Assembly: GCF_004011825.1 (NCBI RefSeq)
Contig: NZ_RKLO01000003.1
Span: forward strand, 434,001-498,000
Direction: 5' to 3'
DNA from: Rhodococcus xishaensis
GTDB taxonomy: Bacteria > Actinomycetota > Actinomycetes > Mycobacteriales > Mycobacteriaceae
Length of the DNA stretch: 64,000 nucleotides
Shown here piece by piece: positions 2,458-49,270 of this stretch. Both the position numbers and the translations under genes were made by a program. The notes beneath the pieces were generated by a model. That model saw nothing but the letters and a program-made list of their open reading frames with translations, did not search any database and was not told where the DNA came from. Each line of letters starts with the position of its first letter. Position 1 is the first letter of the stretch.

Positions 2458-3725
2458 GATGCGATTTCTCCGTTCTTCTCGACTTCTCTGGTCATCTCGG
2501 CTTCTTTGTTCTTCTCTAGGGGGCCGGGCGGGATGTCGGCGCACGGATCGGTATGGAAGTCGCCGAACGGGTCGTCCCATGTGGACCACGACAGCTCGTC
2601 GACGAGTTCGCGCTCGGTGAGCAATGCCCAGCTGAGCGCCGCGCTGATCGCCTCAGGTTCAGCGTCGTGGACCAGAATCACCAGCGAGGTGTCCCGGTCG
2701 CCGAAGCGCTCGTCCCAGCCCACGGCGGCGAGCGCCCGCCGTTCTGGATCCACGTCGAGCAGTTCGTCGTCCGTCATGTCGGCGAGCCAACGGTCGGCGG
2801 CGGCCACCCGCAGTCCTTCACCGGCGGATTCGAGCCATAGCGCGATGTCGGGCCGGGTGGCGAGCCAGAACCTGCCGCGCGCGGCCACGACGCCGTCGAG
2901 CAGGACGTCGATAGCCTCGTGCAACCGTCCCGGGTGGAACGGTCGCCGCGCAGCGAACTCGACCAGTGCGACTCCATGGTCGGCGTCCAGGGGTGGGTGG
3001 CCTCGCAGCAGCGGCGAGTGGGCTCCGTCGACGCGACCGCGCCGGGCATCGACCCCGACACGCGACAGCAGGTCAGGACCGTCCGGCACGGCAGAGGTCG
3101 GGGCGCCGGGAGCGAGCCTCGTGAGCACCGCAGACACCTTGTGCGCGAGCCAGGGATCCGCGGTGTGGCTGTCGACGACGAGCGCGTCGGCGAACGCCAC
3201 CTGCCCGACGGCGACCTGTGCGACGGTCCGGTCGTCATCGAGGTCCTCGTCACCGGTCACCTCCTCCCACCACGGCTCGACATCGAGGCAGGTCACGACT
3301 GCCTCGATGCGGACGTCCCGGCCGGCGGGACCGTCGATCTGCCCGACCACATCGACCACCGGCACATGTTCGACCGCCCAGCACACCGCTTCCGGCTCGA
3401 GCGCGGAGTCGAGTTGGAGAACGATCCGGTCGACGGAACTGCGCGAGTGCAGCCTCCGCAGCAGCGGCAGCAGGTCGTGACGAAGCGTGCACGACACGCA
3501 ACCGTGGGCCAGTTCGAGCACCTCGGTGGTCGTCTCCTGCGCATCCACCGACCCCGTCGTGAGGGTCCGGCGCACGATGCCCTGACCTAGATCTCCTAGG
3601 TCGTGACGCACCACCAAGGTGGATGCCTCCCGGTCGCCGAGGAAGGACCGCGCCGTCGCCTCTACCGGTCCACTCCGCCCGCTCACCACGATCAGCGGAG
3701 TGCGGCTCTTCGGATCAGCAGCCAC
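2454..3725 (-). CDS. mrf: CobW-family protein, probable ribosome hibernation factor Mrf
   Basis: Resembles M. tuberculosis Rv0106 and the mycobacterial factor Mrf, which recruits the hibernation factor Mpy to zinc-free (C-minus) ribosomes. Seen here: a COG0523 N-terminal fold, the motif AHGCVSCT with a CxxC at about residues 76-79, and a CobW C-terminal domain with [14 protein letters not shown]. The P-loop position reads [15 protein letters not shown], lacking the GKT lysine of canonical CobW GTPases, so GTP hydrolysis is doubtful. I chose the GTG at 3725, preceded by GAAAGG at nine bases; the upstream ATG at 3755 lies inside the Zur box. First gene of the minus-strand arm. Confidence 0.85.
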
Positions 3726-37776: not shown

Positions 37777-39459
37777 ATGGTCGACGGCGCAAATTGGGAC
37801 CTCGAGGATTTCGAGAACTTCGAGGAGGTCCTCGCCGACATGCGCAGTCGGCTCGTTGCCAGCGTCGCGACGCCCGCCCGGTTGCGCGAGCTCATCGAGG
37901 CCACCCTGGTGGTCGGGGCCGGGCTGGAACTCGATTCGACCCTGCAGCGGATCGTGCAGGCCGCGACGACCCTGCTCGATGCGCGCTACGGCGCACTCGG
38001 GGTGCGTGATCCCGACGGCGGCGGACTACTCGAGTTCGTGTACGAGGGCATCAGCCCGGACGAGCGATCCCGGATGGGTCACCAACCGGAGGGCCGGGGA
38101 CTGCTGGGGCTGCTGATCGAGCATCCGCGGCCGGTGCGTGTCGCGCACCTGGGTCAGCACCCCGCGTCGGTCGGCTTCCCGCCGAACCACCCGCCGATGG
38201 ACAGCTTTCTCGGCATGCCGATCATCGTGCGGGGCACGGTGTTCGGCAGCATCTACCTCACCGAGAAGCGGTCCGGCCCGGAGTTCACCGACGAGGACGA
38301 GACCATCCTCGACGCGCTCGCCACATCGGCGGGAGTCGCGATCGACAACGCGCACCTGTTCGAGGAGTCTCGCACCCGCGAACGCTGGCTCATCGCGCTC
38401 GCGTCGTTCAATTCCCGGCTGCTCTCCGGAGGTTCGATCGACGAGGCTCTCGACCTGCTTGTGACGCGTACCCGCGACCTGTGCGGCGCATCCGGCGCGT
38501 ACGTGATGGTTCTCAACGACGACGGCGCAACCATCGAGGCGGCCTCGTCGAATGACGGTCCCCGAGCGGGTAACCACCTCGACCTGTCGGAGTCGGACCT
38601 GCTCGCGGTCGTCCGTGGGCGTCGGCCAGCCCTGCTCACCGCACGGGATCGGATGGCCCCGTTCGCCGCGGCCGACGACGTCCGGGTAGCCGCGCTGCCG
38701 CTGTCCACGACGTCGGGGGTCGCGGGCCTGCTGGTGGTCACCCGGGAGGCGCAGGGCTGGACGCCGGACGAGATCACCCGCCTGATCTCGATGGCGGACT
38801 CAGCGGCACTGGCGGTGGAGTTCGCCGATCAGCAGCATCAACGGCGACAGCTCGACGTGCTGGCCGACCGGGATCGCATCGCTCGGGACCTGCACGACAA
38901 CGTCATCCAACAGTTGTTCGCGACCGGCATGAGCTTGCAGAGTCTGCTGCTCGACGAGACCCACCCCGTCTCGGAGCCGGCGGCAGCCACGCTCGCGGAG
39001 ACGGTGGCCCAACTCGACCGCACGATCCGAGAGATCCGCACGACGATCTTCGACCTGCACACCGCGGGCGAGCAGGCTCCGACGAGTCTGCGCCGACGGC
39101 TGCTCGACGCGATCGGCGACCTGACCACCCGGTCGGCCTTGACGCCGAACGTGCAGTTCACGGGCGCGATCGACACGCTGGTGCCGGCGCGGATTCATCC
39201 CCACGCCGAGGCCGTGCTGCGCGAGGGTTTGAGCAATGCACTCCGTCATGCTGGGGCGTCGACAATCAACGTCGCGATCGATGCCGCCGACCAGTTGACG
39301 ATCCGCATCCGTGACGATGGCGTCGGCGTGCCCGACAACCCAAGGCGCAGTGGCCTGGACAACCTGGTCCGACGGGCCGAGCAGTGCGGCGGCTCCTGCT
39401 CGGTGCTGCCGGGCGTCGATCACGGAACCGAACTGATCTGGCGGGTGCCGCTGAAGTGA
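37777..39459 (+). CDS. devS: DevS/DosS-like haem sensor histidine kinase
   Basis: 560 residues: two GAF domains (about 45-195 and 215-350), then a HisKA_3 dimerisation helix with the phospho-accepting His at about 373 (DRIARDLHDNVIQQLF) and an ATPase domain (IRDDGVGVPDNP). In GAF-A the sequence VGFPPNHPPMDSFLGMP aligns with the haem-ligand segment of mycobacterial DosS, placing the proximal His at about 138. Senses O2, NO or CO through haem and phosphorylates DevR. The partner gene follows head-on, not in the same operon as in mycobacteria. Confidence 0.9.
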   Translation: MVDGANWDLEDFENFEEVLADMRSRLVASVATPARLRELIEATLVVGAGLELDSTLQRIVQAATTLLDARYGALGVRDPDGGGLLEFVYEGISPDERSRMGHQPEGRGLLGLLIEHPRPVRVAHLGQHPASVGFPPNHPPMDSFLGMPIIVRGTVFGSIYLTEKRSGPEFTDEDETILDALATSAGVAIDNAHLFEESRTRERWLIALASFNSRLLSGGSIDEALDLLVTRTRDLCGASGAYVMVLNDDGATIEAASSNDGPRAGNHLDLSESDLLAVVRGRRPALLTARDRMAPFAAADDVRVAALPLSTTSGVAGLLVVTREAQGWTPDEITRLISMADSAALAVEFADQQHQRRQLDVLADRDRIARDLHDNVIQQLFATGMSLQSLLLDETHPVSEPAAATLAETVAQLDRTIREIRTTIFDLHTAGEQAPTSLRRRLLDAIGDLTTRSALTPNVQFTGAIDTLVPARIHPHAEAVLREGLSNALRHAGASTINVAIDAADQLTIRIRDDGVGVPDNPRRSGLDNLVRRAEQCGGSCSVLPGVDHGTELIWRVPLK

Positions 39460-39462
39460 GGC

Positions 39463-40101
39463 TCAGTCCCGCCGGTTGTTCCGCAGTTCGGTCGCCAACA
39501 CCGCTGCCTGGGTGCGGCGCTGCATGCCGAGCTTGGCGAGCAACCTGGAGACGTAGTTCTTGATCGTCTTCTCGGCCAGGAACAGCCGCTCGGCGATCTC
39601 GCGGTTCGTCAGGCCCTCGCCGATGAGGTCGAAGACGGCTCGCTCCTGGTCGGAAAGCTCGGCGAGTGGGTCGGTGGTGCGTTCGGACCGGATCCGCTGC
39701 ATCAGCGCGGCCGTTGCGCGACTGTCGAGCAGCGACCCACCCGCACCGACCGTCCGTACCGCCGAGATCAGATCGGTACCGAGGATCTGCTTGAGGACGA
39801 ATCCGGAGGCACCCGCCATGACGGCGTCGAACAGGGCCTCGTCGTCGGCGTACGACGTGAGCATGAGACAGCGCAGGTCGGGCAGTACGACTCGCAGTTC
39901 GCGACACAATTCGACGCCGTTGCCGTCGGGAAGTCGCACGTCGAGGACCGCGACGTCGGCGCCGCTGGACGGAATTCGTGCCAGCGCCTCACCGACCGAG
40001 GCAGCCTCACCCACCACGGTCAGGTCGGGGGCGCTGCCGAGGAGATCGACCAGCCCCCGTCGCACGATTTCGTGATCATCGACCAGGAAGACTCGCGTCA
40101 T
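39463..40101 (-). CDS. devR: DevR/DosR dormancy response regulator
   Basis: 212-residue NarL/LuxR-family regulator close to mycobacterial Dev[20 protein letters not shown], phospho-acceptor Asp in [17 protein letters not shown], and the DNA-recognition helix-turn-helix [34 protein letters not shown] 40101 with AGGAAGG eight bases upstream, preferred to an in-frame GTG at 40110. Activates hypoxia/NO genes through boxes such as those at 53.96 kb. Its stop is three bases from the devS stop; the pair is convergent. Confidence 0.93.
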
Positions 40102-40258: not shown

Positions 40259-42205
40259 ATGACCACGGGTATCGAACAGCGCGAGTTCCAGACGGAGACT
40301 CGCCAGATTCTGGATCTGATGATCCATTCGGTGTATTCCAACAAGGACACCTTCCTCCGCGAGCTCATCTCGAACTCGTCCGACGCGCTCGACAAACTCA
40401 AGCTCGAGGCGTTCCGCGACAAGGACCTCGAGGCCGACACGTCGGACCTGCACATCGAGCTGGCGGTCGACAAGGCCACACGCACGCTCACGGTGCGTGA
40501 CAACGGCATCGGCATGTCCCATGACGAGGTGATCGACCTGATCGGCACGCTCGCCAAGTCCGGAACAGCCGAGCTGCGTCGCAAACTGCGAGAGGCCAAG
40601 GACGCCGCGGCGTCGGAGGAGCTGATCGGACAGTTCGGCATCGGCTTCTATTCGACGTTCATGGTCGCCGACAAGGTCACACTGCTGACGCGCAAGGCCG
40701 GCGAGAAGCATGGAACACGGTGGGAGTCGAGCGGCGAATCCACCTACACGATCGAGACCATCGACGACGCCCCCCAGGGCACGACGGTGATGCTGCACCT
40801 CAAGCCGGAGGACGTCGAGGACCACCTCTACGATTACGCGGCCGAACAGAAACTGCGCGAGGTCGTCAAGCGCTACTCGGACTTCATCGCGTACCCGATC
40901 CGGATGGACATCGAGCGTCCCGCTCCGAAGAGCGAGGATGAAACCGAGACGGAAACCGACACACCGAAGACGGTCATCGAGACCGACACGCTCAACTCGA
41001 TGAAGGCGCTGTGGGCCCGCCCGAAGGACGACGTCACCGAGGACGAGTACAACGAGTTCTACAAGCACGTCAGCCATTCCTGGGACGACCCGCTCGAGGT
41101 CATCCCGATGAAGGCCGAGGGCACGTTCGAATACCAGGCGCTGCTGTTCATTCCGTCGCACGCGCCGTTCGACCTGTTCTCGCGCGAACATCGCGCCGGT
41201 ATCCATCTGTACGTCAAGCGCGTGTTCATCATGGACGACTGCGAGGAACTCATGCCCGAGTACCTGCGCTTCGTCAAGGGCGTGGTCGATGCACAGGATC
41301 TGTCGCTCAACGTCTCTCGTGAAATCCTTCAGCAGGACCGGCAGATCCGCGCGATCCGCCGTCGCCTCACCAAGAAGGTGCTCACCACGATCAAGGACAT
41401 CATGTCCGCCGATCAGGAGAAGTACCGGACGGTGTGGTCACAGTTCGGTCGGGTGCTCAAAGAGGGCCTGCTCTCGGACTTCGACAACCGGGAGACCCTG
41501 CTCGAGATCTCGTCCTTCCAGTCCACGAACAGCGATGACGAGCAGACCACGCTGGCGCAGTACGTCGAGCGCATGCAGGACGGTCAGGAGCAGATCTTCT
41601 ACCTCACCGGCGAGTCCCGCCAGCAACTCGAGGCGTCCCCGCACATGGAGGCGTTCCGTGCCCGCGGTCTCGAAGTGCTGTTGCTCACCGACCCGGTCGA
41701 CGAGATGTGGGTGACGTCGGTCCCCGAGTTCGACGGCAAGCCGTTGCAGTCGATCGCGAAGGGAGAGGTGGACCTCGATACCGAGGAGGAGAAGAAGGAT
41801 GCCGAGGCCAAACGGGAGGAACAGGACAAGGAGTTCGCCGGCGTCCTGTCTTGGCTGACCACGACACTGGAGGAACAGGTCAAGCAGGTGCGTCTGTCGA
41901 CGCGCCTCACCGACTCCCCCGCGTGCATCGTCGGCGACGAGTTCGGCATGACGCCCGCCCTCGAGCGGATGTACCGGGCGTCCGGCCAGCAGGTGCCGCA
42001 CTTCAAGCGCATCCTCGAACTCAACCCCACTCACCCGCTGGTGGAGGGTCTGCGCAGTGCGCACGCCGAACGAGGCGACGATCCGGGTCTCGCCGAGACG
42101 GCCGAGTTGCTCTACGGCACAGCACTTCTCGCCGAGGGTGGCGAGCTGGAGGATCCCGCACACTTCGCGAAACTGCTTGCGAACCGCCTGGCGCGCACCC
42201 TCTAG
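40259..42205 (+). CDS. htpG: Molecular chaperone HtpG (Hsp90)
   Basis: 648-residue bacterial Hsp90. The GHKL ATPase domain shows ELISNSSDALDKL, DNGIGMS and IGQFGIGFYSTF; the middle domain has LNVSREILQQDRQIRAIR with the catalytic Arg; the C-terminal dimerisation domain ends ELEDPAHFAKLLANRLARTL. ATG 40259 follows GAAGGGAACC. Its 3' 121 bases are duplicated in decayed form at 45041-45160, implying that DNA between was inserted here or that a second copy was lost. Confidence 0.97.
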   Translation: MTTGIEQREFQTETRQILDLMIHSVYSNKDTFLRELISNSSDALDKLKLEAFRDKDLEADTSDLHIELAVDKATRTLTVRDNGIGMSHDEVIDLIGTLAKSGTAELRRKLREAKDAAASEELIGQFGIGFYSTFMVADKVTLLTRKAGEKHGTRWESSGESTYTIETIDDAPQGTTVMLHLKPEDVEDHLYDYAAEQKLREVVKRYSDFIAYPIRMDIERPAPKSEDETETETDTPKTVIETDTLNSMKALWARPKDDVTEDEYNEFYKHVSHSWDDPLEVIPMKAEGTFEYQALLFIPSHAPFDLFSREHRAGIHLYVKRVFIMDDCEELMPEYLRFVKGVVDAQDLSLNVSREILQQDRQIRAIRRRLTKKVLTTIKDIMSADQEKYRTVWSQFGRVLKEGLLSDFDNRETLLEISSFQSTNSDDEQTTLAQYVERMQDGQEQIFYLTGESRQQLEASPHMEAFRARGLEVLLLTDPVDEMWVTSVPEFDGKPLQSIAKGEVDLDTEEEKKDAEAKREEQDKEFAGVLSWLTTTLEEQVKQVRLSTRLTDSPACIVGDEFGMTPALERMYRASGQQVPHFKRILELNPTHPLVEGLRSAHAERGDDPGLAETAELLYGTALLAEGGELEDPAHFAKLLANRLARTL

Positions 42206-42241
42206 ACACCGCCCACAGGCGGCTCCGCGCACGTTCGGCGC

Positions 42242-42302
42242 GGCCCACTCGCGGTGGCTTCCTGCACTTCCGTTGCAACAGGTGCCATCCCGCGAGTGGG
42301 CC
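42242..42302. terminator. Large perfect inverted repeat after htpG
   Basis: GGCCCACTCGCGG at 42242 and its exact complement ending at 42302 form a 13-base-pair stem; inside it TGGC/GCCA and CCTG/CAGG extend the pairing around a 14-base loop. No T-run. It lies between htpG and the convergent methionine-rich gene and most simply terminates both transcripts, though its size also suits a mobile-repeat relic. Confidence 0.6.
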
Positions 42303-42338
42303 GGGGTCGATGATTGCCAGTGGGGGACGATCCACGAG

Positions 42339-42452
42339 TCAAGGCGACGACATGTCCATGGGTGGAATCAATCCCATCTGCTGCAGATGCATCATCCACA
42401 TCTGCCCCATTTCCATCATGTCCATGTCCATCCCCATCATGTCCATATCCAC
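42339..42452 (-). CDS. Methionine-rich 37-residue microprotein
   Basis: Starts at GTG 42452, eight bases after a consensus ribosome-binding site (AGGAGG at 42461-42466), the strongest in the window. Fifteen of the 37 residues, counting the initiator, are Met, spaced as MDMDMMGMDMD and MWMMH, with five Asp, one Glu, one His and no Cys. MxM and MxxM clusters are known Cu(I)/Ag(I) ligands in SilE, CopA-type and Ctr proteins, so a soft-metal buffer is the best guess. No signal peptide. Downstream of the SHOCT gene and beside a two-component system. I do not recognise a named family. Confidence 0.7.
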   Translation of the reverse strand: MDMDMMGMDMDMMEMGQMWMMHLQQMGLIPPMDMSSP

Positions 42453-42484
42453 AATCCTCACCTCCTCTCCGTGAACTGCTCTTC

Positions 42485-42535
42485 TCAACTGAGGTAGTAG
42501 ATCGCTCCGAAATCGGGATCGGATGAGCTGGTCAT
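42485..42535 (-). CDS. Possible 16-residue ORF upstream of the Met-rich gene
   Basis: ATG 42535 to TGA 42485, MTSSSDPDFGAIYYLS, with AAGGA six bases before the ATG. It ends 32 bases before the microprotein start, in the same direction. It could be a leader peptide controlling the downstream gene or chance; only the well-placed ribosome-binding site supports it. Confidence 0.3.
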   Translation of the reverse strand: MTSSSDPDFGAIYYLS

Positions 42536-42627: not shown

Positions 42628-42900
42628 TCAGTGTTCCTGCGCGGCACGAAGATGGTCTCGGCGGATGCGGTACTCGTCGACGTCGATCTCCCCGCGTGCG
42701 AAGCGCTCGTCGAGGATCTCGTCTGCGCTGCGCCTGTTGGTGGTGTCGTTGGTCCCGTACGGAGAGCGGTCCGTACGGATACTGCGGAAGAGTGCCATCA
42801 CCGCGACGATGACCAATGTCCAGAACGCGACCATCGCCAGGACCATCAGTACCCAGCCACCCCAGCTCCATCCGTAGCCGATCCCGTCGTTCCACATCAT
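42628..42900 (-). CDS. SHOCT-domain small membrane protein
   Basis: 90 residues: Trp/Gly-rich start (MMWNDGIGYGWSWGGW), one membrane helix at about 15-40, and a C-terminal SHOCT motif (SADEILDERFARGEIDVDEYRIRRDHL, first half at about 58-70). SHOCT proteins of this size often accompany copper/silver resistance or envelope-stress loci, but their function is unknown. AGGTGA precedes the tandem ATG. Probably cotranscribed with the Met-rich gene 175 bases downstream; divergent from the response regulator. Confidence 0.85.
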   Translation of the reverse strand: MMWNDGIGYGWSWGGWVLMVLAMVAFWTLVIVAVMALFRSIRTDRSPYGTNDTTNRRSADEILDERFARGEIDVDEYRIRRDHLRAAQEH

Positions 42901-42982: not shown

Positions 42983-42998
42983 TGAAGTTTCGCTGAAG
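42983..42998. promoter_or_regulatory. Candidate response-regulator site (direct repeat)
   Basis: TGAAG occurs at 42983 and 42994, starts 11 bases apart, within the 161-base divergent region between the SHOCT gene and the regulator gene. This is the usual layout for an OmpR-family dimer, so the adjacent regulator may control both directions from here. Confidence 0.45.
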
Positions 42999-43061: not shown

Positions 43062-43841
43062 ATGGAGAGCATGGACGACACGCCCCCGCAACCACTCACG
43101 GACGCCGCCAAACATCGGGCGTTGGTGGTGGACGACGAGCGCCCGTTGGTTGCGGTCGTCGTGAGCTACCTCGAACGGGAGAACTTCGAGGTAGCAGTGT
43201 CCTACGACGGGGTGGATGCACTTGCGCGTGCCCGGGAGTTCGACCCGGACGTCGTGATCCTCGATCTGGGGCTGCCAGGCATGGACGGAATCGAGGTGTG
43301 CCGCGAGCTACGCACGTTTTCCGATGCCTATGTGGTGATGTTGACCGCTCGGATTGCGGAAATGGACAAGATCATCGGTCTGTCGGTCGGCGCCGACGAC
43401 TACGTCACCAAGCCGTTCAGCCCGCGTGAATTGGTTGCCCGCATTCGAGCGATGTTGCGTCGACCCCGGAATGCGCCTGCAGACGAGTCGCGGTCGCCGG
43501 TGCCCGGGTCACTCGACCCGCGTCGGAGCGAGGCTCCACCCCGGGTGTTCGGGGCGCTACAGATAGATGTCGCGGGTCGGGAGGTTCGTCTCGGCGAGCG
43601 TCCGGTGATGTTGACCCGCACCGAGTTCGATGTGCTGGCGGCGTTGTCGTCTCGGCCGGGTATGGCCTTCAGTCGGCGGCAGTTGATCGACTCGGTGTGG
43701 GGGGAATCCTGGGTGGGCAACGAACACCTCGTAGACGTGCACGTCGGGAATCTGCGCCGCAAGCTCGGCGACGACCCGGTCTCGCCCCGGTATGTCACCA
43801 CCATCCGCGGGATCGGATACCGGATGGGTACCGGGCAATGA
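43062..43841 (+). CDS. OmpR/PhoB-family response regulator
   Basis: 259 residues: receiver domain with ALVVDDERPLV, phospho-acceptor Asp in VVILDLGLPGMDG, Lys in DYVTKPFSPREL; a linker of about 30 residues rich in Arg/Pro; winged-helix domain with LTRTEFDVLAALSSRPGMAF and the ending YVTTIRGIGYRMG. The ATG at 43062 has GAGGG five bases upstream; a second ATG nine bases later is possible. The stop overlaps the kinase ATG (ATGA). The neighbouring genes suggest a metal or envelope signal. Confidence 0.93.
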   Translation: MESMDDTPPQPLTDAAKHRALVVDDERPLVAVVVSYLERENFEVAVSYDGVDALARAREFDPDVVILDLGLPGMDGIEVCRELRTFSDAYVVMLTARIAEMDKIIGLSVGADDYVTKPFSPRELVARIRAMLRRPRNAPADESRSPVPGSLDPRRSEAPPRVFGALQIDVAGREVRLGERPVMLTRTEFDVLAALSSRPGMAFSRRQLIDSVWGESWVGNEHLVDVHVGNLRRKLGDDPVSPRYVTTIRGIGYRMGTGQ

Positions 43842-44989
43842 AGGCGCCGCACTCAGCGCGCTCTCTCACTTCCCGTCGGGTGAGTGGAGGCCCAGGCATA
43901 GGTCTGCGTCTGCTGTTGGCGCAATCGATGGTGGTCGTGGCCGGTGGTGCGACCTCGTGGTTGGTCGCAGGTTTGGTCGGCCCCTCGCTGTTCCGTGAGC
44001 ACTTGGAGCGCACTGGTCTACCGGACACGTCCAATGAGCAGTTCCATGCTGAGCAGGCGTATCGCTCCGCCACGGCAATTTCCCTGGCAGTGGCCATCGG
44101 GGCGGCTGTCCTGGTTGTGCTTGTCGTGACCTGGTACTTCAGTCGACGCGTGCAGCACTCGGTGACCGAGGTCTCCTCCGCTGCCACCGCAGTGGCCGAC
44201 GGTCGCTATGGCATTCGGGTCTCACCACCGCACCTGGGTGAGGACTTCAGCGCACTCGCCCATGCGTTCAACCGAATGGCTGCACGGCTCGAGTCCGCGG
44301 AATCCACCCGCCGTCAGCTGCTCGCCGACCTCGCACACGAGATTCGCACTCCCGTATCGGTGCTCGAGGCGTACATGGAGGCTGTCGAGGACGGTATCGA
44401 GACACTCGACGCCGACACGATGACGATGCTCCGTGCTCAGATCCACAGACTCGCCCGGTTCTCGGATGACGTCAGCGCGCTTTCCCATGCTGAAGGGGGC
44501 CTGAAGTCGATCGAGCCGGCGTGGGTGGCCCCCGAAGCAGTGATATCCACTGCAATCACTGCCGCAGCCGACCGCTACGCAGCAAAGGAAGTGGCGCTCA
44601 CCTCCCACGTTCCCGCGAACGTCCCAAGACTGTGGGCCGACCCAGTAAGGCTCGGGCAGGTACTGGGGAACTTGCTCGACAACGCTCTGCGCCACACAGC
44701 TAGGGGTGGCCGAGTGAGTGTGACCGCGCAGCAGAAACACCACGAGCTCACGATCGCGGTGACCGACAACGGCGACGGAATCTCGGCAGAACATCTCCCG
44801 TACCTGTTCGAGCGGTTCTATCGGGTCGATGCGGCTCGTGACAGAGAGCATGGAGGAGCAGGGATTGGTCTCGCGATCGCCAAGGCGCTCGTCGAGGCGC
44901 AGCAGGGTCACATCACTGCGAGCAGCCAAGGTCGTGGATTGGGAAGCACCTTCACCATCACTTTCCCACTACACCCGGATCAGGGATGA
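43838..44989 (+). CDS. Membrane sensor histidine kinase
   Basis: 383 residues: membrane helices at about 24-45 and 79-101 enclosing a very short outer loop of about 33 residues with two His (55, 70) and no Cys, then HAMP, HisKA with AHEIRTPVSVLEAYMEAV (His about 167) and HATPase_c with NLLDNALRHTARGG, DNGDGIS and GGAGIGLAIAKALVEAQ. The small sensor loop points to ion or membrane-stress sensing rather than a large ligand. Coupled to the response regulator by a four-base overlap. Confidence 0.93.
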   Translation: MKAPHSARSLTSRRVSGGPGIGLRLLLAQSMVVVAGGATSWLVAGLVGPSLFREHLERTGLPDTSNEQFHAEQAYRSATAISLAVAIGAAVLVVLVVTWYFSRRVQHSVTEVSSAATAVADGRYGIRVSPPHLGEDFSALAHAFNRMAARLESAESTRRQLLADLAHEIRTPVSVLEAYMEAVEDGIETLDADTMTMLRAQIHRLARFSDDVSALSHAEGGLKSIEPAWVAPEAVISTAITAAADRYAAKEVALTSHVPANVPRLWADPVRLGQVLGNLLDNALRHTARGGRVSVTAQQKHHELTIAVTDNGDGISAEHLPYLFERFYRVDAARDREHGGAGIGLAIAKALVEAQQGHITASSQGRGLGSTFTITFPLHPDQG

Positions 44990-45320: not shown

Positions 45321-46310
45321 GTGCGCGGACTTGGCATTGATCTCGGAACCACGAACACTGTCGTCGGGACCCTCGAAGACGGGATCGTCCTGAACGAACC
45401 GTCTTTCATGCTGGTTCGGAACAAAGATCCGCACCGCGCCCTCGCGATCGGCCACGATGCGCGGGCCCTTATCGGCCGCACGCCTGCAGGAATCACGCAG
45501 GTTCGCCCCATGCGCGACGGCGTCGTCGTGGATCTGGACTCGGCCAGAGCATTCGTCACGGCCGTCATCGAGCGGGCTGCTCCGCGCAGGTGGTACCGCC
45601 GTCGACCGAAGGCCATCTTCTCGGCTCCCGCAGGGGCCACCCCACTCGAGCGCCGCGCGCTGCTCGAGGTCGGGCATGAGGCAGGCCTGCGAAAGGTCGG
45701 TTTGATACCGGAACCGGTGGCGGGTGCAATCGGGTGTGGCATCAATCCACTCGAGGCTCGCGCCCATCTCGTCGTGAACATCGGCGGCGGCACTTCGGAG
45801 GTCACCGCCGTCTCTTTCGGTGGCGTGATCTCGCACCGCACTTGCCAACTGGCGGGGGAGGATCTGGACGAGGCATTGCACCACTACGTACGCGAAGAGC
45901 ATCACATCATCGTCGGCGAGCTCACCGCCGAACGCGCCAAGATGGGCGCAGCCGATACCGCCGAGGGACAGTCGCTCGTGGTGGAGGGCCTCGACGGCGT
46001 CACGGGCCGCGCGCGGATGATTTCCCTCGACGTCGAGGAGGTAGTCGAGGCGCTGCGGCCGACCACGACCGGAATAGTGCAGACGTTGACCGCCTGCCTG
46101 GACGACCTTCCCCCGCAGGCGATCAGTGACGTGATGTCCGAAGGGGTCCTGGTGATCGGGGGCGGCGCAATGCTCCGCGGACTGGCTCACCTTTTCGAAG
46201 AGTCGTTCGGCCTCCCGGTGAAGACGGCCGAACGGCCGCTGACCTGTGTCGCCGAGGGCGCCACGGCCTGTTTGGATCACCCGGAGCTCGTTGCCGCCTA
46301 CAGCGGCTGA
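45321..46310 (+). CDS. mreB: MreB-family actin-like protein
   Basis: 329-residue actin-fold protein of MreB length. Phosphate-1 loop GIDLGTTNTVV (about 5-15), IGRTPAGITQVRPMRDGVVVD, FSAPAGATPLERRAL, phosphate-2 VVNIGGGTSEVTAVSFGGV, AGEDLDEALHHY and the adenosine motif VLVIGGGAMLRGLAHL, ending PLTCVAEGATACLD as in MreB. DnaK-type substrate domains are absent. MreB organises lateral-wall synthesis with RodA and PBP2 in rods; most Mycobacteriales lack it. The convergent neighbour encodes a RodA-PBP fusion. There is no mreC or mreD in the window. Confidence 0.85.
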   Translation: MRGLGIDLGTTNTVVGTLEDGIVLNEPSFMLVRNKDPHRALAIGHDARALIGRTPAGITQVRPMRDGVVVDLDSARAFVTAVIERAAPRRWYRRRPKAIFSAPAGATPLERRALLEVGHEAGLRKVGLIPEPVAGAIGCGINPLEARAHLVVNIGGGTSEVTAVSFGGVISHRTCQLAGEDLDEALHHYVREEHHIIVGELTAERAKMGAADTAEGQSLVVEGLDGVTGRARMISLDVEEVVEALRPTTTGIVQTLTACLDDLPPQAISDVMSEGVLVIGGGAMLRGLAHLFEESFGLPVKTAERPLTCVAEGATACLDHPELVAAYSG

Positions 46311-46311
46311 T

Positions 46312-46433
46312 CACCGAGGCGACGCCTCGACGGAAGCCACCGAGGCGGCGCCTCGCCTTTGGTCACCGAGGCGGCGCCTCGCCTTTGGTCACCGAGGCGG
46401 CGCCTCGCTCTGAATCACCGCGGCGGCGCACCG
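46312..46433. repeat. 26-bp tandem repeat, each unit a hairpin (4 copies plus a degenerate fifth)
   Basis: CACCGAGGCGGCGCCTCG recurs at 46312 (one change), 46338, 46364 and 46390, exactly 26 bases apart with CCTTTGGT-type spacers; a fifth, degenerate copy at 46416 overlaps the stop codon of the RodA-PBP gene. Each unit contains CGAGGC-GGC-GCCTCG, a stem. It lies between convergent mreB and the fusion gene, so it probably acts as a multi-hairpin terminator. Confidence 0.85.
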
Positions 46434-49270
46434 ACCGGACGTTCCGCGAGGTAGCGCTCGAGGATCGACATGGCCACGGGGCCGGACGTCGCCGATCCGA
46501 AGCCCCCGCCACGGACCATTACCGTGACGACGATTTCGGGAGACTCGAAGGGCACCACCGCGGAGAACCAGGCGTCGAGACCATCGCCCGGCGCGGACGG
46601 ATCCTCCGCCGTTCCGGTCTTGGAGCCGGCCGTCACCGGCAGACTGGCGAGCTGCCCGCCCGTACCGGCAGCGGCCGAAGCCCGCATCCCGGCGCGGACC
46701 GGATCGAGCCGATCGGCGAAGGGAAGCGGATTAGGCTCCGCCGTCGGAATCGGCGCGCCCTCCCCGGTTCCGTAGGCGGCGGCGAGTTGCGGAGTGACCA
46801 TCGCCCCGGTGGCGATACCGGACGTCCACCCTGCCACTTGCAGCGGGGTCGCCGTCACTGTGCCCTGCCCGATGCCCATCAGCACCGTCGAGCCCGGATA
46901 CCAGGTGGCCCCGATGTCCCCCACCGTCTCCGGGGTCCCTAGGAAACCCGCAGACTCACCCGGCAGATCGATCCCCGAGCGCCGGCCCACACCTAGCTCG
47001 TTGGCGACCGAAGCGATCTGCTCGGGACCGAGCATTAGGGCGAGCTTGTAGAAGTACACGTTGTCCGACCATTGGATCGCCCGCAACAGGTTGTTCGGAC
47101 CCATCGGCTGCCAGTTCGCGAACGTGTGCCCTCCGTAGGTGAAAGCGCCACCGGTCGGTATCGCCAGGTCAGGATCCAGTACCTGATCCTCCGCGTTCGC
47201 CGAGGCGACAACGATCTTGAAGGTCGAGCCGGGTGGCGCGGCGGTCTGGAAGGCGTTGTTGAGCATGCGGCTGGGCCCGGGGCCCTCTGTTTGGGCTGCC
47301 AGCGCGACGGCGTCGACGGGAGGACCGTAGACGTTGTTGTCGTACCCGGGGACGCTGGCGAGCGCCAGCACCGCGCCGGTGCGCGCGTCCATCACGAGCG
47401 CCGCGCCCAGGTCGCCCCCGCTGCCGCGGACCGCCTGGGCCAGTCTCTCCGTCGCGAGGTTGTGCAATCCGATGTCCAGGTGCAGCCGCAGGTCGTGGCC
47501 CGGCACCGGATCCACGCGCTCTCCCGGACCGACCGGACGTCCGTTCGGGTCTACGTACACACACTGCTTGCCATCGGTACCGCGCAGCAGCGCGTCGTAT
47601 TGCTTCTCGAGCCCGGCACTCCCGACCCGCGACCCGAGTGCGAGCTCCGGCCAGCGTTCCATGTCGTCCGGATCGCCGATGCTGACGTATCCGAGGACGG
47701 ATGCGAGCGCATCCCCGTACGGGTAGTGCCGACGGCCGGAGGGAACGACGAGCACGCCGGGGATCTGTGCATCGATGATCTGCCGAGCCTGATCGGGCGC
47801 GACCCTGCCGACGACGGTCTGCATCTCCCCTACACCGCGTTCACCCAAGGTGTTCGTCAGCTCGTCATTGGAAGTCCCGAGCAACGCGACGAGCGCTCCG
47901 CGCGAACCGGAGTCGTTCTCGTCGAACATTCCGGTGACCACCGAAATGGCGTACTCGGGAACGTTGACCGCCAATGGCACGCCGTTGCGGTCGACGATCT
48001 GACCACGCTCGGCGGGCAGGCGGATGCAGCGATTCATCTGGGAATCGCTCAACGCACGCAACTCCGGGCCGCGATCGCTCTGCAACTGCCAGGCGAACAC
48101 CGACATCGCGACGAGGAGCGCGGTGACCGCGGCAGTACCCGCCGTCATGCCCCGGGGCCGGCGCCGGCGCACGGACGGCTCAACCCACAGTGGCCGAGCG
48201 ACACCGTCCCGGCGCACAGCGAGCACCAGCCCGATCGCCACGAACCCGACGAGTGCGACCGTGCCCCCGTAGCTGAACATCGGGAGCGGCATTCCGGTAT
48301 GGGGCAACAGCGACAGGCTCGCACCGATCGACAGCACTGCGTGGATCCCGAACAGCCCGCCGATGCCCGCGGCCACAAGGGCAGCTTCTTTGGTTCGTGC
48401 CCGTCGTGCGGCGAGCGCGGCGCGCCAGGTGATCACCAAGCTGGCCGCCACGACTGCGATGCCGGCGAACAGCCCCCACCCGTACACGACGCTCGCGAAC
48501 GCGAGGTCGTGCTCCGCTTCGGGGAGGTACTGAGCCCTCAGCTCATACACGGGGTCTCGCGCCAGCCCCCACAGCCCACCGCTGCCTATCGCGATGTCGG
48601 CCTGAAGCGATGCCCAACCCGACCCACTCGGGTCGGCATCGCTGGACACGAACACCTGGATCCGTTCGAGTTGGTACGGGCGGAGGAACAGCGCGGCAAT
48701 GGGGAGTGCGGCGAGTCCCAGCGCGAACAGCGGCAGCAGCGGCAACATCGGCACCCTCGCGAGGACCAGCATCAGCGCCGCTACCGCTGCCAGGACCACG
48801 GCACTCGACAGGTCGGGCTGCAGGGCGACCAGTGCGACTACGCCACCCGCAATCGCCAACGTCGCCGCCAATCGACCGATCGTGTATCCGCCGGCCAGTA
48901 CGGTCGCCGCCACCATGACCAGACCGAGCTTGGTGACTTCGGCCGGCTGAATGGTGAACACACCGAAATCCAGCCAGCGTTGCGCGCCCTTGACCGATAC
49001 CCCGACAAGCGGCACGGCCACCAGCATCGCGACTGACGCCCCGAGGGTCACTAATCCGAATCGTCGCAGGTTGCTCACCCGCATACGCGAGACGAGGAAC
49101 ATCACCCCGATGCCGACGACGGCAAAACCCGCGTGACGGACCGCTTGCGATGTGAGTCCGATAGACACCAAGTTGAGAAGGCCGAAGATCGTGAGAACGA
49201 CCGCCGCCGTGACAATCCAGGGATCGGACTCCCGGTCGTGTCCCTGCACACGACCACCGTCCCCACTCAT
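46415..49270 (-). CDS. Natural RodA/FtsW (SEDS) - class B penicillin-binding protein fusion
   Basis: 951 residues. Residues 1-355 are a SEDS glycosyltransferase: about ten helices, the catalytic-type Asp in QPDLSSA (about 153), EAEHDLAFASVVYGWG (251-266) and PLPMFSYGG (328-336). A further helix at about 375-395 begins a class B PBP: pedestal region with RLPAERGQIVDRNGVPLA, transpeptidase motifs STFK (682-685), SDN (735-737) and KTG (884-886), all intact. Normally these are two proteins acting as a complex. The frame is continuous with no internal stop. Start ATG 49270 overlaps the upstream stop (TGATG). Confidence 0.93.
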   Translation of the reverse strand: MSGDGGRVQGHDRESDPWIVTAAVVLTIFGLLNLVSIGLTSQAVRHAGFAVVGIGVMFLVSRMRVSNLRRFGLVTLGASVAMLVAVPLVGVSVKGAQRWLDFGVFTIQPAEVTKLGLVMVAATVLAGGYTIGRLAATLAIAGGVVALVALQPDLSSAVVLAAVAALMLVLARVPMLPLLPLFALGLAALPIAALFLRPYQLERIQVFVSSDADPSGSGWASLQADIAIGSGGLWGLARDPVYELRAQYLPEAEHDLAFASVVYGWGLFAGIAVVAASLVITWRAALAARRARTKEAALVAAGIGGLFGIHAVLSIGASLSLLPHTGMPLPMFSYGGTVALVGFVAIGLVLAVRRDGVARPLWVEPSVRRRRPRGMTAGTAAVTALLVAMSVFAWQLQSDRGPELRALSDSQMNRCIRLPAERGQIVDRNGVPLAVNVPEYAISVVTGMFDENDSGSRGALVALLGTSNDELTNTLGERGVGEMQTVVGRVAPDQARQIIDAQIPGVLVVPSGRRHYPYGDALASVLGYVSIGDPDDMERWPELALGSRVGSAGLEKQYDALLRGTDGKQCVYVDPNGRPVGPGERVDPVPGHDLRLHLDIGLHNLATERLAQAVRGSGGDLGAALVMDARTGAVLALASVPGYDNNVYGPPVDAVALAAQTEGPGPSRMLNNAFQTAAPPGSTFKIVVASANAEDQVLDPDLAIPTGGAFTYGGHTFANWQPMGPNNLLRAIQWSDNVYFYKLALMLGPEQIASVANELGVGRRSGIDLPGESAGFLGTPETVGDIGATWYPGSTVLMGIGQGTVTATPLQVAGWTSGIATGAMVTPQLAAAYGTGEGAPIPTAEPNPLPFADRLDPVRAGMRASAAAGTGGQLASLPVTAGSKTGTAEDPSAPGDGLDAWFSAVVPFESPEIVVTVMVRGGGFGSATSGPVAMSILERYLAERPVGAPPR

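Follow-up and report, generated by a model that had tools for sequence, protein, structure and literature searches.

A methionine-rich microprotein family beside SHOCT genes in copper-type and dormancy-type loci of Rhodococcus and Nocardia

We describe metP, a name coined here for a Met-rich ORF and its relatives, as a family of coding genes that is conserved and, in close relatives, shaped by purifying selection. The copy from which we traced it lies in the window, the whole 64,000-nucleotide stretch of the Rhodococcus xishaensis genome analyzed here (G+C 67%; genome of 3.7 Mb in 22 contigs), where the ORF holds up as real and is very likely a gene. metP probably holds copper(I), because it accompanies a small membrane protein and is often found among genes for copper handling. 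The reading we favor, with somewhat better than even confidence, places metP at the end of a CopRS-type copper operon and makes its product a helical buffer or shuttle that binds Cu(I) and Ag(I) and works with a SHOCT protein, and with a multicopper oxidase where one is present. A literature search on this protein and its operon returned no description that we recognized; the family and its pairing with SHOCT appear to be new, Met-rich copper proteins being already a known kind.

Results

The window encodes a methionine-rich microprotein

The reading frame and the signals around it are:
42339–42452, minus strand: metP, a 37-residue Met-rich microprotein with GTG start and TGA stop
42458–42466, minus strand: Shine-Dalgarno sequence AGGAGGTGA, 5 nt upstream of the GTG at 42452
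42241–42303, no strand assigned: perfect 14-bp inverted repeat between the converging htpG and metP ends, a possible terminator hairpin without a T run

A sequence-only reading had proposed a Met-rich microprotein with 15 Met in 37 residues, and the translation, (V/M)DMDMMGMDMDMMEMGQMWMMHLQQMGLIPPMDMSSP followed by the stop, bears this out (15 Met counting the GTG start, 40 percent). Elsewhere in the window no open stretch of 37 residues holds more than 5 Met, compared with 14 in metP when GTG is read as Val, and 60 windows simulated from an order-3 Markov model gave maxima of 3–6 Met per 37 residues, never above 6. The peptide has one His and no Cys, and no signal peptide is apparent by eye. 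An AlphaFold single-sequence model gives a helix over residues 3–25 (mean pLDDT 82).

The earlier description of the ribosome-binding site as the best in the window is fair, because few of the 3743 ATG/GTG triplets match AAGGAGGTGA so well: at the tested distance, 59 have at least six contiguous bases and two have at least eight, in a count that takes all triplets and leaves annotated starts unranked. The 9-mer AGGAGGTGA has one further copy in the window, at 3265 on the minus strand. Relatives carry 6–10 contiguous bases of AAGGAGGTGA before metP in 24 of 34 cases and 4–5 in the remaining 10. Consensus scans around metP found neither a sigma-70 promoter nor a T-run terminator. The window copy is probably translated. 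As had also been noticed, the opposite strand is open (a mechanical 255-codon ORF, 41707–42474); antisense frames in relatives lack coding constraint.

The prediction that such a gene is easily missed by annotation holds for two plasmids, those of R. pseudokoreensis and Rhodococcus sp. DK176, whose gene tables, known to be incomplete, list no metP. The DK176 table has no entry at its position. The R. pseudokoreensis table leaves the metP strand empty and places a 65-residue hypothetical protein antisense over it (WP_206004516.1; locus L006, 8019–8216, minus strand), which looks like a false gene call. Annotation can therefore skip this gene or call its antisense strand.

metP is a family with a fixed core

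Using the window peptide as query, we searched 401 genomes from its GTDB family and obtained 28 places at E up to 1, of which we kept the window and 17 short Met-rich ORFs of like design and dropped 10 as unrelated Met stretches. Profile A1 then matched metP in 27 of the 401 genomes and 7 of 31 genera, Rhodococcus and Nocardia among them (E ≤ 0.01), and profile A2 in 13 of the 28 genomes of the genus that contains the Rhodococcus matches. Within the window's own genus (14 genomes) A1 matches the window only; the window peptide alone adds genome G011, which A1 misses, as A2 misses genome G163. Searches of the order (3 of 397 genomes, including the window's own) gave hits all within the same family, and those of the phylum (6 of 396, again including the window's own) added five partial matches at E 0.03–0.09, left uninspected and treated as noise. 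A scan of named organisms, incomplete because it used a single degenerate pattern, found seven loci, with metP in Rhodococcus sp. KRD197, R. qingshengii and five Nocardia species. It is also present on three plasmids, from R. opacus VOC-14, R. pseudokoreensis and Rhodococcus sp. DK176. In assembling the loci we dropped L111 (genome G327, contig C14), which has no proper start, added L110, and counted L102 and L006, whose contigs are equally long, once as a single plasmid.

Family members share the core M-x-x-x-H-x-x-M-M-[WC]-[LM]-H-x-M-G-x-x-P-P-M-x-M, and in 34 sequences span 22–44 residues with 25–59% Met (median 39%). His occupies two core positions in most members, and Met is kept where Leu, Ile or Val would serve. 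Sequence searches of Pfam, NCBIfam and the PDB gave no family for metP: a Pfam scan of 25 members found no DUF305 and one chance match to another family (E 0.08), and no PDB chain matched with E up to 1. We define the family as ORFs of 22–44 residues with at least 25% Met and the core H..MMxLH.MG..PPM, with a linked SHOCT gene as a further mark. The window copy belongs to it on both counts, scoring E 4.6e-7 against profile A1, which was built partly from that copy. It retains MM, MG and PPM, has Gln in place of the first core His, and has drifted from the core (one His only). The G011 copy has lost its PPM end, and that of genome G261 (L098, 6109–6243) carries a tandemly duplicated core, HELMMWLHGAGLLP and HEFMMWLHGAGILP, with fewer Met, which hints that the core is as important as the number of Met. 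The sequence-only reading had asked whether relatives conserve the Met pattern, and had pointed to the neighborhood of SHOCT genes as a place to look; for the family as a whole, the pattern is conserved in both.

Purifying selection acts on close relatives

The informative set for selection is one of seven close Rhodococcus sequences, in which pN/pS is 0.27 in the metP frame and 0.70–1.67 in the other five, a value that none of 500 column shuffles reached. Across these seven the ORF has a nucleotide identity of 0.91, the 90 nt that follow it 0.64 and the segment from −110 to −20 0.69. Three R. erythropolis-type copies give dN/dS of 0.16, one g9 pair gives 0.13 from two differences, and a second g9 pair has no synonymous changes.

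Around the window copy, identities in ORF, downstream and upstream sequence are 0.72, 0.76 and 0.63 against G011, 0.72, 0.61 and 0.63 against genome G141, and, between G141 and G163, 0.61, 0.60 and 0.87. For such window-type pairs, conservation is no higher in the ORF than in the flanking sequence, so that purifying selection is established on relatives and not on the window copy. The copies nearest the window differ in repeat-type ways, yet keep the frame and 15–19 Met. A 21-nt tandem repeat lies inside window metP, and slippage there can alter the number of Met.

That repeat, together with the ORF being no better conserved against G011 than the flanking DNA, is what would be expected of a chance ATG-rich repeat that is no gene. 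We consider this very improbable in view of the profile matches, the one-frame selection in relatives, the Shine-Dalgarno sequence and the synteny. Still harder to credit is a translated leader or attenuator whose Met codons sense Met-tRNA: the Met codons do come in runs, and dormancy-type loci have a gene 130–460 nt downstream, but the next gene in the window is the converging htpG, and selection acts at the amino-acid level on non-Met codons.

A SHOCT membrane protein is the usual partner

Upstream of metP lies its usual partner:
42628–42900, minus strand: SHOCT protein of 90 residues with a hydrophobic N-terminal half and a C-terminal SHOCT domain

Its domain matches Pfam at E 1.8e-5 with 24.8 bits, just below the Pfam cut-off of 27, and its stop at 42628 is 175 nt upstream of metP. 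A SHOCT gene lies within 3 kb of metP in 22 of 34 distinct loci (22 of 35 before removal of L111 and the duplicate plasmid and addition of L110). Among eight genomes picked for having metP, 8 of the 11 homologues returned by a SHOCT query adjoin metP; the window genome has one match to that query, the one beside metP. These counts are not independent, because many of the loci are orthologous. The pair is kept across four arrangements, and the two proteins may be partners. In N. africana and N. niigatensis metP comes first and SHOCT follows about 100 nt on, and the other three Nocardia metP loci examined showed no SHOCT. About a third of all loci (g9, g15, g21 and some Nocardia) showed neither SHOCT nor copper genes that we could label nearby. 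A silver-induced SHOCT protein described in Haloferax offers a distant parallel to the metP-linked SHOCT (PMC10694973).

SHOCT is the most constant feature of the neighborhood, also in dormancy-type clusters without an oxidase, and the hydropathy of the metP peptide is near or above zero. Both would suit a regulatory partner, a short helix controlling SHOCT, a pump or the kinase, in which Met is a hydrophobic residue and not a metal ligand. We think this rather unlikely, as Met is conserved where other hydrophobic residues would do, most members have the two core His, and copper genes recur at several loci.

The window operon is probably of CopRS type and has lost its oxidase

Further features upstream of metP are:
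43062–43841, plus strand: OmpR-type response regulator, divergent from SHOCT, 81–83% identical to the regulator in three Rhodococcus copper plasmids
43838–44989, plus strand: HAMP-HisKA-HATPase sensor kinase
42485–42535, minus strand: multicopper oxidase deletion scar, a 16-codon ORF (MTSSSDPDFGAIYYLS, then a stop) made of the first and last codons of the oxidase gene
42983–42998, no strand assigned: CopR-like direct repeat TGAAGTTTCGCTGAAG between the regulator and SHOCT genes, compared with the CopR box described for C. glutamicum (PMC3140484)

Regulator and kinase are 76–84% identical to their counterparts in the copper plasmids and G141. In G141 divergent kinase and regulator genes are followed by SHOCT, a multicopper oxidase and metP; three Rhodococcus plasmids have the same order, with CsoR, HMA and DUF305 genes near and a copper P-type ATPase near in two of the three. 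G163 has SHOCT, oxidase and metP with neither kinase nor regulator adjoining. From the end of the oxidase to metP there are 20–33 nt in G163 and G141 and about 110–120 nt in the plasmids. KRD197 has SHOCT, metP, oxidase, and genome G364 has metP, then a P-type ATPase, with the oxidase behind. Altogether, an oxidase lies within 3 kb of metP in 9 of the 34 distinct loci. Plasmid pRHL3 has the operon without metP, pROB01 has it without oxidase and metP, and metP is absent from nine further oxidase plasmid regions examined among 246 matching records.

Alignment of the window with G141, whose oxidase gene is 1578 nt long, runs through SHOCT into the first oxidase codons, breaks, and resumes at the last. 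The oxidase is also gone from G011 (HtpG 99% identical), with a different left edge and with metP kept. A second oxidase, 67% identical, occurs elsewhere in the window genome (contig C17) and in G011. The window operon thus has the divergent two-component genes and CopR-like tandem repeat of a CopRS-type operon and lacks the multicopper oxidase of one. With the oxidase deleted and SHOCT and metP left in these two genomes, the pair either outlives the oxidase or is being lost after it. We rejected the idea that metP is an oxidase fragment: in G141, G163 and the three plasmids it is a separate ORF after an intact oxidase. The design of the CopR-like box is equal in G141, whereas G011 and the plasmids retain one half and vary in the other; a second TGAAGTTTCGCTGAAG-type match lies at 44491, inside the kinase gene. 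The sequence-only reading was right about a coding Met-rich microprotein with a strong ribosome-binding site; it overlooked the oxidase scar, the two-component system and the His/Trp/PPM core.

Beyond the kinase, 45321–49249 encodes an MreB/Mbl-like protein and then, convergently, an ORF of 944 residues that combines FtsW/RodA, PBP-dimer and transpeptidase domains in a single frame, and both genes are also near metP in G011, G141 and G163.

metP also occurs in dormancy-type loci

In other Rhodococcus genomes SHOCT ends about 5–50 nt upstream of metP, and wax-ester synthase or KAS III-like genes lie downstream; four loci also have hydrogenase-type genes. Near these dormancy-type copies are universal stress, flavodoxin, nitroreductase and CBS genes. 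Of 14 loci examined, 12 have a box, AGGGTCTTTCGGCC, with 0–2 mismatches about 103–117 nt ahead of the SHOCT start (expected 0.15 per 15 kb), the misses being L109 and the doubtful L111. We take this box to resemble the mycobacterial DosR box. It stands before SHOCT at L047, L049–L052, L059, L060 and L098, and a variant lies between nitroreductase and ABC genes at L049 and L060. These boxes may mark a possible DosR-like regulon in Rhodococcus. A second R. qingshengii copy, with SHOCT, oxidase and metP adjoining CBS and wax-ester-synthase-like genes, joins the copper and dormancy settings.

In the window, a DevR/DosR-like regulator (39463–40101, minus strand; best solved relative DevR 3c3w, E 2.4e-88) stands beside a GAF-GAF histidine kinase of DosS/DosT layout (37777–39459, plus strand), and this pair is about 2.3 kb from metP.

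Discussion

Our data add to the copper and dormancy-type loci of Rhodococcus and Nocardia a gene family that had gone unrecognized, and give the obscure SHOCT membrane proteins a steady partner. We propose that metP is expressed as the last gene of a CopRS-type copper operon, in which copper would induce transcription through the CopR-like box between regulator and SHOCT. Met thioethers and His on the helical peptide would be the ligands for Cu(I), and for Ag(I), and the peptide could serve as a small buffer or shuttle for Cu(I) alongside the SHOCT membrane protein, joined by the multicopper oxidase where present. Both the induction and the Cu(I)/Ag(I) binding are suggested by gene context, by the CopR-like box and by what is known of Met and His chemistry. 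The family pattern of His, Met-Met and His at i, i+3, i+4 and i+7 would fall on one helix face, the first His being absent from the window copy. Several findings weigh against this reading. Met-only Cu(I) sites are usually located outside the cytosol, and metP has no signal peptide apparent by eye; the window copy has one His and no Cys; a third or so of the loci showed neither SHOCT nor copper genes; several copper operons lack metP; G163 has no two-component genes adjoining SHOCT; and the promoter and terminator scans were negative. If Cu(I) binding holds true, metP is a very small thioether-based copper protein.

Other small copper proteins differ in design. CusF of E. coli is a small folded periplasmic Cu(I)/Ag(I) carrier with Met, His and Trp next to the metal; its fold is presumably other than that of metP, which matched no CusF-family entry in Pfam and no PDB chain with E up to 1. 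MymT of M. tuberculosis is a very small actinobacterial copper protein with Cys thiolates, in place of which metP has Met and His.

CopM, described as Met-rich, Cu(I)-binding and copper-induced, has 196 residues, a signal peptide and two DUF305 domains (PMC4335983). metP shares the Met richness, and DUF305 genes occur in the same plasmid operons; unlike CopM, it has 22–44 residues and no Pfam match to DUF305.

MrpX of Azospira suillum is likewise small and Met-rich, and is described as a stress peptide that scavenges hypochlorite under joint control with the Met sulfoxide reductase YedY1 (PMC5748585). That precedent, with the very high Met content, would fit metP as a sacrificial antioxidant whose Met absorb reactive chlorine or oxygen species and are then re-reduced. 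We judge this improbable: a sink needs no fixed core of His, Trp, G and PP such as metP has, no Met sulfoxide reductase was noticed among the part of the neighbors scanned and identified, and copper genes and a CopR-like box were found instead.

A wider reading of the copper-binding proposal, which we put forward tentatively and with well under even confidence, is that metP and SHOCT form a two-protein membrane module, with one of the smallest of metal-binding proteins at its center, that carries or senses Cu(I) by thioether and imidazole groups on one helix. Such a module might be used twice, with CopRS and a multicopper oxidase for copper excess and with a DosR-like regulator in dormancy clusters, which would link the handling of copper to oxygen limitation.

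A close described arrangement is that of the C. glutamicum cop operons (copRS and cg3286-copO-cg3288-tlpA), which likewise have divergent two-component genes, an oxidase operon, a tandem TGAAG box between them and a small ORF after the oxidase (PMC3140484). There CopR is reported to bind TGAAGATTTgaTGAAGATTT between the operons and to activate both, cg3286-cg3289 being copper-induced 53–422-fold (PMC3140484). An oxidase match occurred in 65 of 161 presumed-Corynebacterium genomes, from which we scanned 12 loci for Met-rich stretches, 8 of them gene by gene. Unlike metP loci, these begin with a gene for a secreted protein instead of SHOCT, and the small ORF that comes after their oxidase is not Met-rich. 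Homology of metP to cg3288 is unsupported: none of the 12 loci showed metP, cg3288 itself standing outside the comparison. One of the 12, L120, has another Met-rich small ORF (419–760). This ORF and one at L131 (8748–8936) are small, Met-rich and hydrophobic (MVMMGLMMRMM and MGLMMWMMM, respectively), lie near copper oxidases and differ in design from metP.
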